Positions 55,566-63,388 of a DNA stretch of 64,000 nucleotides are shown in pieces. A model generated the notes under the pieces. The model searched no databases, was not told the DNA's origin, and saw nothing but the letters and a program-made list of their open reading frames with translations. How positions within the stretch are numbered: position 1 is the stretch's first letter; each line of letters opens with the position of its first letter. The DNA comes from Psychrobacter glacincola. GTDB taxonomy: Bacteria > Pseudomonadota > Gammaproteobacteria > Pseudomonadales > Moraxellaceae. Both the position numbers and the translations under genes were made by a program. The DNA lies in assembly GCA_001411745.2 (NCBI GenBank), contig LIQB01000004.1, forward strand, positions 124,001 to 188,000, read 5' to 3'.

Positions 55566-56195
55566 ATGACAACCAAACGAGTAACCTTGCTACGCTTACC
55601 AACCATCCTGACCGCTGGTGTACTTAGCACTGGACTGCTTTTAAGTGCTTGTAGCAATAACGATAAGACAGCTAATAGTGCCGAAGATACGGCAGCCATC
55701 GCTGAAGGCAGTGCTGATGAAAGCATTAATGCTGAAAATAGCGCTGCTAATCAAACGTCAGCAGTGGATGCGAATAGCACAGTTGACAGCAAGCAGATGG
55801 CTGAGAGTGGCAAAGATGAAACGGCTATTGATAGTGATGATATTAATCCAGTCACCTCTGCAACCAAGCAAAAAAGCCTCGTAACCAATACGACCCAAGC
55901 TGGCACACCAGAAGATACTGTCAAGCAAGCACTAGATAGCTTGTATTATGGCGAGGTAAAAGAAGCTGTTAAATATTATAAAGTAGATATGGCAAACTTC
56001 GAAGAAGAGCTGGCTAAAACCCAGTATGCCTTTCAGCAAACGGTCGATGGCGTCACTATCACCGATACTCAATACAACGATGATAAAACCCGTGCCACCA
56101 TCATTGGGGAGCTGATGTTAAAAGGACAAAGCGAACCTGCACCATTGACCTATCAGCTACAGAAGATAGAAGGTCAATGGAAGATCTTGGGTTAA
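55566..56195 (+). CDS. Lipoprotein with DUF4878-like C-terminal domain
   Basis: The 209-residue lipoprotein precursor has a basic start, a hydrophobic stretch and the lipobox LLSAC with Cys29. Residues 30-110 are Ser/Asn/Asp/Glu-rich and probably a disordered tether. Residues 112-209 look like a DUF4878 (NTF2-like) domain: GTPEDTVKQALDSLYYGEVKEAVKYY in two helices, then strands up to LTYQLQKIEGQWKILG. The function is unknown. GAGGG lies 8 bases before the ATG. It converges with the acetyltransferase gene, only 11 bases apart. Confidence 0.8.
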   Translation: MTTKRVTLLRLPTILTAGVLSTGLLLSACSNNDKTANSAEDTAAIAEGSADESINAENSAANQTSAVDANSTVDSKQMAESGKDETAIDSDDINPVTSATKQKSLVTNTTQAGTPEDTVKQALDSLYYGEVKEAVKYYKVDMANFEEELAKTQYAFQQTVDGVTITDTQYNDDKTRATIIGELMLKGQSEPAPLTYQLQKIEGQWKILG

Positions 56196-58706: not shown

Positions 58707-59696
58707 TTATGGAAGCAGGTGTGCTACCGCATCACGTTCTTCGCTAAGCTCTTGCTCAGTCGCTGCCATTTTCTCTTTAGAGAAATCTGATGACACATCA
58801 ACGCCATCTACGATAGACCAGTCGCCGTTAGTGCATGTGCATGGGAATGAGTAGATTAAGCCTTTTGCGATACCGTATTCGCCGTTTGAATAAACGCCCA
58901 TCGATACCCAATCATTCTCATCAGTACCCAATGCCCACGTACGTACGTGTGCAATGGCCGCGTTGGCAGCAGAAGCGGCAGATGATGCACCGCGTGCTTT
59001 AATGATTGCAGCGCCACGTTGTTGTACTTCTGGGATATAAGTCGCTTCGTACCATTCGCGATCAACCAAATCTAATGCAGGCTTACCGTTGACAGTAGCA
59101 GCAGTCAGATCAGGATACTGCGTTGATGAATGGTTGCCCCAGATGATCATTTTTTTCACGTCATTTACTGTGCTGTCAGTTTTGCCAGCCAACTGTGCCA
59201 TGGCACGGTTATGATCTAGACGAGTCATCGCAGTGAAGTTACGTGGATCAAGATCTGGTGCATTACGCTGAGCGATAAGGGCGTTGGTGTTGGCAGGGTT
59301 ACCGACAACCAATACTTTTACGTCACGGCTTGCAACGTCATTCAATGCTTTACCTTGTGCTGAGAAAATCGCAGCGTTGGCTTCTAGCAAATCTTTACGT
59401 TCCATACCTGGACCACGAGGACGTGAACCGACTAGCAGAGCATAGTCAACATCTTTGAATGCAACCGTCGCATCATCAGTCTGCACAATACCTGCTAATA
59501 AAGGGAATGCACAATCTTCTAATTCCATGACCACACCCTTTAGGGCGTCAAGTGCTGGAGCGATTTCAAGCAATTGCAAAATAACTGGCTGATCTTTACC
59601 TAGCATCTCGCCAGATGCAATACGAAATAACATAGCATAGCTGATATTACCAGCGGCACCAGTGACGGCAACACGTAAAGGCTGTTTCATTGACAT
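58707..59696 (-). CDS. mdh: Malate dehydrogenase (NAD type, 329-residue group)
   Basis: Mdh interconverts malate and oxaloacetate in the TCA cycle. The NAD-binding start [15 protein letters not shown], the mobile-loop arginines in [38 protein letters not shown] and the catalytic His in [13 protein letters not shown] are present. The length is that of the cytosolic-type bacterial enzymes rather than the 312-residue E. coli type. GGGAG lies 7 bases before the ATG at 59696. Confidence 0.97.
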
Positions 59697-60068: not shown

Positions 60069-60710
60069 CTATTTTCCACCCGAAATGACGAACTTACTGC
60101 CACAATTATTCACAACATTATGACATGTGCCAAATTCGCTCCCTTCATAACAAATATGGATATCCGTCAATGTTGATTGACGACGACTGCCCGCTTGGCA
60201 AATCAGATCAATACTGTTTGAGGACATACCGCTATTGAGTTGAGTCATTTGACTGATAAATCGAGATTTAGAAACCGTATAGCTATTACCTGTATTAAGC
60301 TCGTTAGGCAGCTTTAATGCGCCAGCGTAATTGGTAATCTGGCGGAAATAACTACTGGCACTGAGTGGACTACACGCCCCATAACGCTGCCAAGCTTGGC
60401 TACGTACTGTCGTATCAGGCATGATACGGTTAACGACTTTTAACTGTAACGGTGTCAGACGTGGCTCACTACCACGTCCGCAGCGCTCACCATATCCCAT
60501 ATCCAGACCTGATACTGTCAACGAATAACCCTCCAAGCATTGACGCATGCGGGCACGTGTCGGCTGTATGCTACACAATGCTGGCGTCATCTCAATCATC
60601 AACACCCGCTGTCCGCTCTTAACAGCGCTCGCGGCATGTACCGGCATCATCATAATGCCTTGCAACATCACTAATGCACCGATACTTAGCGTCGTATTTA
60701 GTTTATCCAT
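60069..60710 (-). CDS. Secreted RNase T2-fold protein lacking catalytic residues (putative pseudoenzyme)
   Basis: From an ATG at 60710 the 213-residue precursor begins with a signal peptide (LSIGALVMLQGIMMMPVHAA). The mature part aligns by eye with RNase T2/RNase I: MTPALCSIQPTRARMRQC resembles the WPPxFC...C start, then GYSLTVSGLDMGY takes the place of GFxxHGLWPxx, and QAWQRYGACSPLSASSYF takes the place of HEWxKHGTCxxxxxxYF. Cysteines typical of the fold follow (LICQAG, IHICYEG, GTCHNVV). The catalytic His of HGLWP is Ser, and the His, Glu and His of HEWxKHG are Gln, Ala and Tyr. RNA cleavage is therefore unlikely; an inhibitor-binding or RNA-binding role is possible. The frame also opens at 60860, and that longer start cannot be excluded. 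Confidence 0.7.
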   Translation of the reverse strand: MDKLNTTLSIGALVMLQGIMMMPVHAASAVKSGQRVLMIEMTPALCSIQPTRARMRQCLEGYSLTVSGLDMGYGERCGRGSEPRLTPLQLKVVNRIMPDTTVRSQAWQRYGACSPLSASSYFRQITNYAGALKLPNELNTGNSYTVSKSRFISQMTQLNSGMSSNSIDLICQAGSRRQSTLTDIHICYEGSEFGTCHNVVNNCGSKFVISGGK

Positions 60711-61194
60711 AGATGTATTAGTTATCGAGCTTGATTGGTTTAAATCTGGCGTCAGAGTAGATAGCGAGCGTACCTGCATCTGCTGAATAGATGACTGATG
60801 CCGAACTTTGGATAACAGGGACAGATTGAAATATTTTTTGATCATAGGGGCTGAAGGCATCTAGCAATGATAAAAACATGGGCTATCGTTTAGCTCATAG
60901 TGTTCGACGTATGAACACTGATAAAACTAAGAATAGAGCTAACAAAAATGTGTGCGTTGATTGATAAGCACTTATTATAAGCACGTATAAAAGACACTAA
61001 TTGATGCAATGGTAGCAAAACGTTTTTTTTAATCTATAGCAGAAACGTAAACATAAGCTAATGATAGCATCAATAGTACAAAAATATCGCAACGTTAGCA
61101 TGTCATCATCAGCGAGGTTGGGTGTCGAATTAGGCATATCGTCAAGACAAAACTAGCTTTGATTGCACGATCAAAAGTGACATAAAGTGACATG
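60711..61194. other. Spacer between slt and the RNase T2-like gene
   Basis: About 480 bases of A+T-rich sequence, of which the first 150 could be coding if the longer start of the RNase T2-like gene is used. It holds that gene's promoter. No other coding frame or strong structure was seen apart from the slt terminator at its end. Confidence 0.4.
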
Positions 61195-61249: not shown

Positions 61250-63388
61250 TTAGAGCGCGGCAGGTATCGTGCCCATGCGCTGGCTAATAGGCTGACTACG
61301 ACCTAATAGACTGCTATAAATGGTGGCATTTTCCATCACGTGTTTAACGTAATTACGGGTTTCAGGAAAGGCAATCGACTCGACGTACTGGTCGGCTGCG
61401 AGCGAACCATATACTGGTTGCCAACGCTTGGCATTGTTCGGACCCGCATTATAGCCAGCCGTTGCCAACACAGGTTGACGGTTTAGCTTGCCGAAAATAT
61501 CACCCATATACCATGTGCCATAACGAATATTGGTATCGCCACTATTGGCACGGCTGGCGCTATAGGTCTCACCTAAATTGCGAGCAATGTATTTTGCCGT
61601 GTCAGGCATCACCTGCATCAAACCACTGGCACCAACGTTTGAGCGTGCTGATGCAACAAAACGACTTTCTTGACGCATGATGCCATAAGCCCAAGCAGGA
61701 TCGATACCAGCAGACTGACTATAACGTACGACTGCATCTTGATGCGGCATCGGATGTGATAACGCTAAGCTGTCTACTCTATCAGTATTATCAACGGCAT
61801 AAATTGCTCGGTCGAGCCAGCCCATATCATAGGCTTGACGAGCAGCGGCAATAATCAAGTTATCATCACGCTTGTCGCGCGCCTGCTTTACCGCCCAGTT
61901 CCATTCACGATTGGCATAGGCACGGCTGGCGTCAGCATTATATAGAGCAAAAGCACGCGCAAAGTTGGCATCTTGCATGACACGTGCGCGATCAGCGGTA
62001 CTGACATTTGGTAAGTTATTACCACCCAAACGACTGGCATCAAAACGCTGACCCACTTTATCCTTTGCCATTAAGCCATAATAGTCATTATTTTTTGCCA
62101 AGTTTTGATACATTTTTTTAGCAGTATTACGTTTGTTAGCATCGCTTGATTGCTCGTAAGCGCGAGCCAGCCAATATTGCCACTGATCACTTTTTTGGGT
62201 TTCAGCCTCCATTTTTGAGATGGCTTCGACCACATCATCCCAGCGGCTAAAGCGAATCGCTGCCATGGCATAATCTTCGGCTTCTTCAAAATTAAAATCT
62301 TCGTCTAGGCTATTGCGGAACCAGTCAACCGCCTCAGCATTAAAACCATCATCCGTATTATGATTCATACGTTGCACCCCAAGGATGCGATACGCATAGC
62401 GACGAGTCTCCGCATTCAATAATTTAACTGAACGCTGATTGTCTTGCTTAACATCAAAATCTAACTGTAATGCAGCTTCACGGTAAGACTTATCAGCAAC
62501 GCGTCCCATGGCATATAGATATAAGTATTGATTGTTTTGACTTGCAGGTTCTCGACTAAAACGGCTAAAAAAAGCAGACGGATTCAGTTGAATCTCACTC
62601 AATGCTGAATAAGCAATGGGCGTTCCTAAACGTGATGACAATGCCATAATGTCACCCGTTTTGCCTTTGCGTAGCATACGCTTGAGCCGCGCCGCGCGAT
62701 CCTGATTGCTAATCAGCGCGTTATTATTCATCTCCATCGCGAGCTGGTCACACAAAGCTGGCTGCTTTTTGGTCGTCAACCAAACTTCAGACTTGGCTGC
62801 CATAGCCCGCATAGTATCGCCGCCATTATTGAACCCAAGCGCAACCGCACAGCGCTCACTGGCATCCGCATTGGTAATTAAATTCGCAACTTGGCGTACT
62901 GAGGCGTAATCATTGGAGCCTGCTTTGGTCTCAGCAAAATCCGCCACCAGCTTTTCTGCCATCACGGTATTTGGATATTGACGCACAAACTGTGATACCG
63001 CCGCCGAACTTTGCGAATTAAGATCTAAATTCATCCGCCAATAAGTGGGATACATAGCAAACAAACCGCCACTCATCGCTTGCTCATAATTGTATAAGGC
63101 ACTGACATCACCGCGTTCTGCCGCAATTGCCGCTGCTGTAAATGAGCTCACACCATTGTCTGACTGATAGCCACTGTTTTGTTGATAGCTGCCTTCTTGC
63201 TGATAACTGTCCTCTTCGCCCCACGTCAGCTCAGCACAAGCCACCTGTGACAATCCTAGCGCACTCACTGCTGTCGCCAAACTTAACGCACTGACTCGTA
63301 GCGTCCTTGCTTTCATTCGTTTTGCATCTTCATTTTGCTTAATAGATTCTCTATCCTTGATGCTATGAGCAACCTGCGGCTTTGTCAT
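61250..63388 (-). CDS. slt: Soluble lytic murein transglycosylase (Slt70-like)
   Basis: Slt cleaves the MurNAc-GlcNAc bond of peptidoglycan in the periplasm, giving anhydro-muropeptides that AmpD later processes. The 712-residue precursor has a 24-residue cytoplasmic-like start, then a signal helix (VSALSLATAVSALGLSQVACA). A long alpha-superhelical region follows (about 75-540). The C-terminal SLT domain contains the catalytic Glu574 in GIMRQESRF, then SGLMQVMPDTA and ATAGYNAGPNNAKRW. A Gln/Tyr/Ser-rich segment just after the signal (YQQEGSYQQNSGYQ) is low-complexity. AGAGAG lies 5 bases before the ATG at 63388, which supports the longer start. Confidence 0.94.
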   Translation of the reverse strand: MTKPQVAHSIKDRESIKQNEDAKRMKARTLRVSALSLATAVSALGLSQVACAELTWGEEDSYQQEGSYQQNSGYQSDNGVSSFTAAAIAAERGDVSALYNYEQAMSGGLFAMYPTYWRMNLDLNSQSSAAVSQFVRQYPNTVMAEKLVADFAETKAGSNDYASVRQVANLITNADASERCAVALGFNNGGDTMRAMAAKSEVWLTTKKQPALCDQLAMEMNNNALISNQDRAARLKRMLRKGKTGDIMALSSRLGTPIAYSALSEIQLNPSAFFSRFSREPASQNNQYLYLYAMGRVADKSYREAALQLDFDVKQDNQRSVKLLNAETRRYAYRILGVQRMNHNTDDGFNAEAVDWFRNSLDEDFNFEEAEDYAMAAIRFSRWDDVVEAISKMEAETQKSDQWQYWLARAYEQSSDANKRNTAKKMYQNLAKNNDYYGLMAKDKVGQRFDASRLGGNNLPNVSTADRARVMQDANFARAFALYNADASRAYANREWNWAVKQARDKRDDNLIIAAARQAYDMGWLDRAIYAVDNTDRVDSLALSHPMPHQDAVVRYSQSAGIDPAWAYGIMRQESRFVASARSNVGASGLMQVMPDTAKYIARNLGETYSASRANSGDTNIRYGTWYMGDIFGKLNRQPVLATAGYNAGPNNAKRWQPVYGSLAADQYVESIAFPETRNYVKHVMENATIYSSLLGRSQPISQRMGTIPAAL

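Follow-up and report, generated by a model that had tools for sequence, protein, structure and literature searches.

Why would a bacterium keep and export a protein built like RNase T2 in which both active-site blocks can still be located by their frames but the residues that cut RNA have gone? Such a gene lies on the minus strand of the window, the 64,000-nucleotide stretch of Psychrobacter DNA analyzed here. We find that this pseudo-RNase is already known, as RnaA, and that its relatives within the Moraxellaceae allow the loss of the active site, and of the gene itself, to be traced.

A predicted RNase T2 fold with a replaced active site

The first-pass annotation placed the remnants of the two active-site blocks, CAS-I and CAS-II, in 60069-60710; translation of the minus strand gives 213 amino acids and reproduces both motifs at exactly those positions (Table 1). 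Profile searches indicate homology to the RNase T2 family beyond chance. With the NCBIfam model NF050015 ("ribonuclease T2 family protein"), the match has an E value of 2.8e-56 and spans positions 16 to 218 of the 220 in the profile; its score of 190.4 bits lies below the curated cutoff of 250. A search with Pfam Ribonuclease_T2 (PF00445), which the annotation had proposed as a check, bore it out in part: there is a match at E 9.8e-5, but its 23 bits fall under the cutoff of 26. A close copy in genome G019 passes with 28.8 bits, and at E 0.001 the model finds 23 of 27 family members. Searched against the PDB, the single protein gave no match (phmmer), whereas a family-wide profile of 27 rows found Escherichia coli RNase I at E 9e-12.

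Table 1. Features of the rnaA-type locus in the window (residues counted from the first-pass start)
Feature	Coordinates	Strand	Remarks
Lactate/malate dehydrogenase family gene (mdh)	58707..59696	-	PF00056, PF02866
rnaA-type gene	60069..60845	-	258 aa, MIKKYF..., with probable true start
N-terminal extension, fast-evolving	60711..60845	-	45 aa here; basic and Ser-rich by eye
Signal segment, hydrophobic	60633..60710	-	First-pass start to residue 26; ends ...MPVHA, followed by AS
Mature RNase T2-fold domain (predicted)	60072..60632	-	187 aa, eight Cys
CAS-I remnant SGLDM	60498..60512	-	Residues 67-71; HGLWP in intact homologues
CAS-II remnant QAWQRYGAC	60372..60398	-	Residues 105-113; HEWxKHGTC in intact homologues
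Lytic transglycosylase (slt) gene	61250..63388	-	SLT, PF01464

An AlphaFold2 model of the mature domain, built from 48 aligned sequences (the window copy plus 47 of the 72 named loci introduced below), had a mean pLDDT of 69.6 and a pTM of 0.69; an earlier model spanning the signal segment as well was of poor quality (pLDDT 59.6), and the fold searches used the mature-domain model. With it, Foldseek returned T2-family proteins at ranks 1 to 13, and the 19 best VIA-align matches were T2-family entries with Z of 9.2 to 11.4, the next match standing at 4.1. The mature domain is thus predicted to adopt the RNase T2 fold, as the annotation had supposed. CalsepRRP (1jy5), an RNase-related protein of the plant Calystegia sepium that we take to be another T2-fold protein without activity, shares this fold (Z 10.5, rmsd 3.6, 152 residues) at 12% identity, with no known shared function. 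E. coli RNase I (2pqy, 2ea1) superposes on the window model with a VIA-align Z of 10.8 and an rmsd of 4.4 over 164 residues at 22% identity; the protein in entry 2pqy was refolded with DsbA. The E. coli enzyme is, according to PMC10249906, an endonuclease active in the periplasm, whereas in the window protein each catalytic residue is replaced.

In an alignment with intact homologues, the changed residues do fall in the CAS-I and CAS-II columns, which confirms that all catalytic residues are replaced: the CAS-I His is Ser, the CAS-II His/Glu/Lys/His are Gln/Ala/Arg/Tyr, and CAS-I has also lost its Trp and Pro. We followed these columns through 73 Psychrobacter copies, the window copy plus 72 named loci retrieved with the conserved peptide patterns RMRQCLEG and PLQLKVVN, one of which holds Cys58; 8 of the 72 are 99 to 100% identical to the window copy, and diverged copies, such as those of genomes G341 and G342, are outside this set. 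No copy has a His in the CAS-I His column (Ser67 in 69, Ala in 4), and none has Glu at position 106 (Ala, Thr, and Val in 40, 24, and 9). Gln105 and Trp107 are present in all 73, position 110, the second CAS-II His column, holds Tyr in 68, His in 4, and Phe in 1, and the former Lys column varies among Arg, His, Tyr, Gln, and Ala. The replacing residues therefore appear to be fixed in part only; the annotation had expected conserved Ser, Gln, Ala, and Tyr, which holds for Gln and nearly so for Ser and Tyr but fails for Ala. We infer from these columns that the Psychrobacter protein lacks RNase activity.

The fold cysteines, in turn, are kept. All eight occur in 73/73 Psychrobacter copies and in the mature part of 28/28 diverse family copies, the third sitting slightly off in the alignment in 16 of them. 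The median dN/dS is 0.02 (121 non-independent pairs, dS 0.2 to 1.0), and no stop interrupts the matched stretch in any of the 73 copies. Selection on the protein, as the annotation had proposed, is supported by both measures. Of the copies outside the pattern-based set, L168 and L169, from genomes G341 and G342 in the window's genus, encode a far more divergent RnaA, scoring 192 to 209 bits against at least 350 for the other matches of the genus; both keep the eight cysteines and lack the CAS-I His.

In the window genome, NF050015 at E 1 matched only the rnaA-type gene, and a second, intact T2 RNase was not found; PF00445 at E 0.01 gave no match in that genome (G000), a weak search that missed even the rnaA-type gene. 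One scan with six patterns from one protein found no viral copies.

Export signal and probable start codon

The -3/-1 pattern serves as a rule for locating signal cleavage sites and here probably places cleavage between MPVHA and AS. Around this site A27 is invariant and A26 and P23 are nearly so (32 rows); the export signal, which the annotation had also noted as kept, was judged by eye.

The gene probably starts at 60845, giving 258 amino acids, and not at 60710, on moderate evidence. In 72/72 named Psychrobacter loci the open frame continues for 29 to 156 codons beyond the upstream end of the match; a MIKK(Y/H)(F/L) start motif is present in 54, and none was found in the other 18. Three of 11 relatives compared (L042, L057, and L085) have no ATG at the first-pass start. 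We tested the extension in 38 hand-picked sequences, 37 from the 54 motif-bearing loci plus that of the window, in all of which the match begins at residue 1, 3, or 4. Its length there is 43 to 73 amino acids, long for a signal peptide n-region. Close pairs differ there by gaps of 6, 15, or 51 nt only, and they change most at the third codon position; pN/pS is 0.45 for the extension, 0.26 for the signal segment, and 0.03 for the mature part, against 0.84 when the 100 nt ahead of the probable start are read as codons. In strict sets the extension gaps are multiples of 3 in 40/40 cases and, at the 0.85 level, in 33/33, a result resting on as few as three indel lengths. Against a coding extension, a set at looser identity, divided at residue 1, contained 128 gaps in whole codons and 96 of other lengths, and in the same set none of the 8 gaps in the fixed-length signal segment is a multiple of 3.

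Two of the motif-less loci, L037 and L056, have a frame apparently shifted by one base near the A run of MIKK, which may be a sequencing error or a real switch. Upstream of the probable start, 60846-60945 (minus strand) is conserved among close relatives, with a pS (as codons) of 0.030 against 0.142 in the extension, hinting at a regulatory region; a promoter and terminator scan found nothing above shuffles.

Orthology to RnaA of Acinetobacter

The annotation knew of no described role for such a protein in this group, a statement that the literature overturns: work on the ortholog goes back to 2014. In the report of that year, Acinetobacter baumannii A1S_3026 lacks both histidines, and the purified protein had no detectable RNase activity (data not shown), the authors leaving assay limits or a missing cofactor as possible reasons; the mutant colonized surfaces poorly and expressed fewer pilus genes (PMC3904860). 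In 2023 the gene was named rnaA and its product called a possible pseudoenzyme, with Acinetobacter and Psychrobacter orthologs named as lacking the catalytic residues. According to that study, deleting either rnaA or dsbA led, through BfmRS, to about 50% more capsule, a roughly threefold larger phosphorylated fraction of BfmR, and greater sensitivity to phage; rnaA overexpression reduced capsule only if BfmS was functional, and strains lacking both rnaA and bfmRS resembled the bfmRS mutant. The authors proposed that the RnaA pseudoenzyme senses disulfide or oxidative defects in the envelope (PMC10249906). In two other papers, a colistin-evolved line carried a mutation in the rnaA gene (PMC5088200), and surface motility is given as reduced in an rnaA mutant that also has changed drug marks (PMC7997844). 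Within the open-licence PMC literature, with PMC12604733 and PMC13371490 set aside, we found no experiments on Psychrobacter rnaA and no later follow-up.

With A. baumannii RnaA, as far as the excerpts describe it, the window protein has in common T2 homology, eight cysteines, an export signal, and missing catalytic histidines; the MIKK start of a longer N terminus, in the 54 Psychrobacter copies noted above, differs from the A. baumannii protein. For direct comparison, a genus labeled g23 among the genomes surveyed stands in for A. baumannii. We take g23 to be Acinetobacter, as it is the largest genus and its BfmR is nearly identical to the BfmR chain in the PDB (5hm6, presumably from A. baumannii), with few differences over 129 positions in one g23 genome. 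The window protein is 42% identical to one g23 copy, and two of five g23 copies have the remnant motifs SSLLP and QLWQNVGGC where the window has SGLDM and QAWQRYGAC. The window row lies within a 16-row clade that holds the five g23 rows (support 100/99), and five g23 loci have the same mdh-rnaA-slt order as the window. Tree and gene order together thus point to orthology with RnaA, and the protein has the features of the RnaA pseudoenzyme, namely, no CAS catalytic residues, eight cysteines, and a putative export signal.

The gene order is well kept. Within the named Psychrobacter loci mdh is a neighbor in 72/72 and slt in 70/72, slt also adjoining in 5/5 g23 loci compared. Both genes flank rnaA in the g23, g25, g28, and g29 loci compared, one of them does so in g26 and g32, and neither lies within the flanks in g24, g30, and g37. 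Elsewhere in the window, 55566-56195 (plus strand) is a lipoprotein-like frame of 209 amino acids with a lipobox, LLSACSNN, seen by eye and no Pfam match at E 0.001.

Stepwise loss of the active site and clean loss of the gene

An rnaA-type match was found in 292 of 348 Moraxellaceae genomes, among them 95 of the 105 Psychrobacter genomes (g1, the genus of the window) and 172 of 175 in g23, where the three misses are genomes only 64 to 80% complete. All genomes match in g24, g25, and g26 (4/4 each) and in g28, g30, and g32 (1/1 each), some do in g29 (3/6) and g37 (7/9), and none do in g27 (0/1), g31 (0/2), g33 (0/3), g34 (0/3), g35 (0/22), and g36 (0/7).

The states of the motifs differ across a tree computed with the motif columns left out. 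Its outgroup T2 proteins, five of 11 fetched, have HGLWP or HGLWA, plus KHG. The g37 copies keep HG(L/M)WPE and KHG in 7/7, with HEW in two and YQW in five. Two g24 copies keep HGLWT and have AWQKYG in CAS-II, and the g30 copy has QGFWP with EWQRHG. The CAS-I His is absent from 22/22 rows of the crown (g1, g23, g25, g26, g28, g29, and g32), a clade with support of 99/93; crown, g24, and g30 together have 96/98. The fewest changes on the tree are two for the CAS-I His, three for the second CAS-II His, and six for the Glu, and these counts imply a stepwise loss, partly parallel in g30 and the crown. As judged from these sequences, the active site was lost inside the Moraxellaceae, via half-lost states. 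The root region is less sure because long outgroup branches meet there, the g37 rows forming an open fork. The published accounts of RnaA, in the parts available, state the end state of this loss; an order of loss was not found in them.

In some genomes the gene itself has gone. mdh is present in 10/10 RnaA-less Psychrobacter genomes, and in nine of these loci a transglycosylase match follows about 240 to 530 bases on (the tenth has none); in three RnaA-less g29 genomes the distance is about 200 to 320 bases. No RnaA-like stretch was found at E 0.1 in 24 RnaA-less loci. The gene thus appears to have been lost without remnant in two genera, Psychrobacter and g29, that otherwise carry it.

BfmR, BfmS, and DsbA

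The window genome has counterparts of the Acinetobacter pathway. A response regulator matches PDB BfmR (5hm6) at E 1.1e-67, and its gene adjoins that of an RstB-like kinase (best model RstB, 278.9 bits, under the cutoff of 478) that is likely BfmS; kinase naming covered 7 of 30 HATPase_c matches. There are three DSBA-family genes. Across the family, 341 of 348 genomes have a BfmS-like sensor, counted as a sensor-region match, with matches in distant genera taken without a one-by-one orthology check. By cross-count they include 289 of 292 RnaA-bearing and 52 of 56 RnaA-less genomes, and because the sensor is kept in the latter, BfmS would not need RnaA. Cysteine is absent from the BfmS sensor segment in 41/41 chosen sequences, and therefore RnaA could be the disulfide-sensitive part.

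If RnaA and BfmS evolved together, the divergence of the sensor relative to the kinase part might differ with and without RnaA. This ratio of means was 2.37 without RnaA (9 genomes) and 3.61 with it (10 genomes) in Psychrobacter, and hence not raised after RnaA loss, whereas a small g29 set ran in the opposite direction, with 4.83 without and 2.76 with; it was 3.20 in g35, without RnaA, and 2.11 and 1.64 in g23 and g25/28, with it. There was no consistent effect and hence no support for coevolution in these 41 hand-chosen BfmS sequences, which cover few clades and form non-independent pairs.

What RnaA may do in Psychrobacter

Orthology makes BfmRS signaling the most likely role in Psychrobacter. 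We lean toward a reading in which the gene is the RnaA ortholog and its product, a noncutting exported T2-fold protein, acts on BfmS as in Acinetobacter. Following the published Acinetobacter genetics, DsbA-type oxidases would fold RnaA in the periplasm, and the level or folded state of RnaA would hold the sensor kinase BfmS in check. Loss or misfolding of RnaA would then increase BfmR phosphorylation and, with it, envelope (capsule) output.

A different view, which we consider unlikely, is that the pseudoenzyme has an envelope role independent of BfmS, such as aiding the transglycosylase, pilus assembly, or attachment, with BfmRS merely reacting to the resulting stress. The adjoining slt gene, the persistence of BfmS-like sensors without RnaA, and the colonization, pilus, motility, and drug-related phenotypes of Acinetobacter mutants would all fit, but the dependence of the A. 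baumannii capsule drop on a working BfmS and the double-mutant phenotypes argue against it. The protein might instead bind RNA or nucleotides without cutting them. The predicted fold and the invariant Gln105 and Trp107 of CAS-II are compatible with this, and an E. coli RNase I mutant is seen on a hibernating ribosome (PDB 9iot), but the columns that once held Glu and Lys are variable and CAS-I lacks its Trp and Pro, and we give binding a rather small chance of being the function.

Cleavage of RNA by other residues is very improbable: 4 of the 73 copies have a His at the second CAS-II His position, but none has the CAS-I His, and the purified A. baumannii protein showed no detectable activity in the 2014 report. 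Almost no likelihood is left for a recently decayed gene kept by chance. Outright loss in some genomes of two genera otherwise carrying rnaA might suggest one, but the stretch is free of stops, the CAS-I His is missing throughout the crown, and we rejected a decayed copy because all eight cysteines are constant and dN/dS is so low. One can also envision, as a long shot, that the hydrophobic segment behind the basic tail stays uncleaved and tethers the dead RNase in the inner membrane next to BfmS, where it would serve the sensor as a permanent subunit reporting on disulfides. Tethered RnaA would then be a pseudoenzyme turned two-component accessory protein after stepwise loss of its active site.

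Returning to RnaA as a regulator of BfmS, retention of BfmS without RnaA calls for caution. What the comparison of sequences adds to the published picture is the apparent loss of the site via half-lost states, the clean gene losses, the BfmS-like sensors of RnaA-less genomes, and the probable start at 60845. What looked like an oddity thus proves to be a pseudo-RNase already on record, with an envelope-signaling phenotype in the literature, and its intact and half-lost relatives, together with the clean losses, mark the places in the family at which the change from enzyme to signaling protein can be studied.
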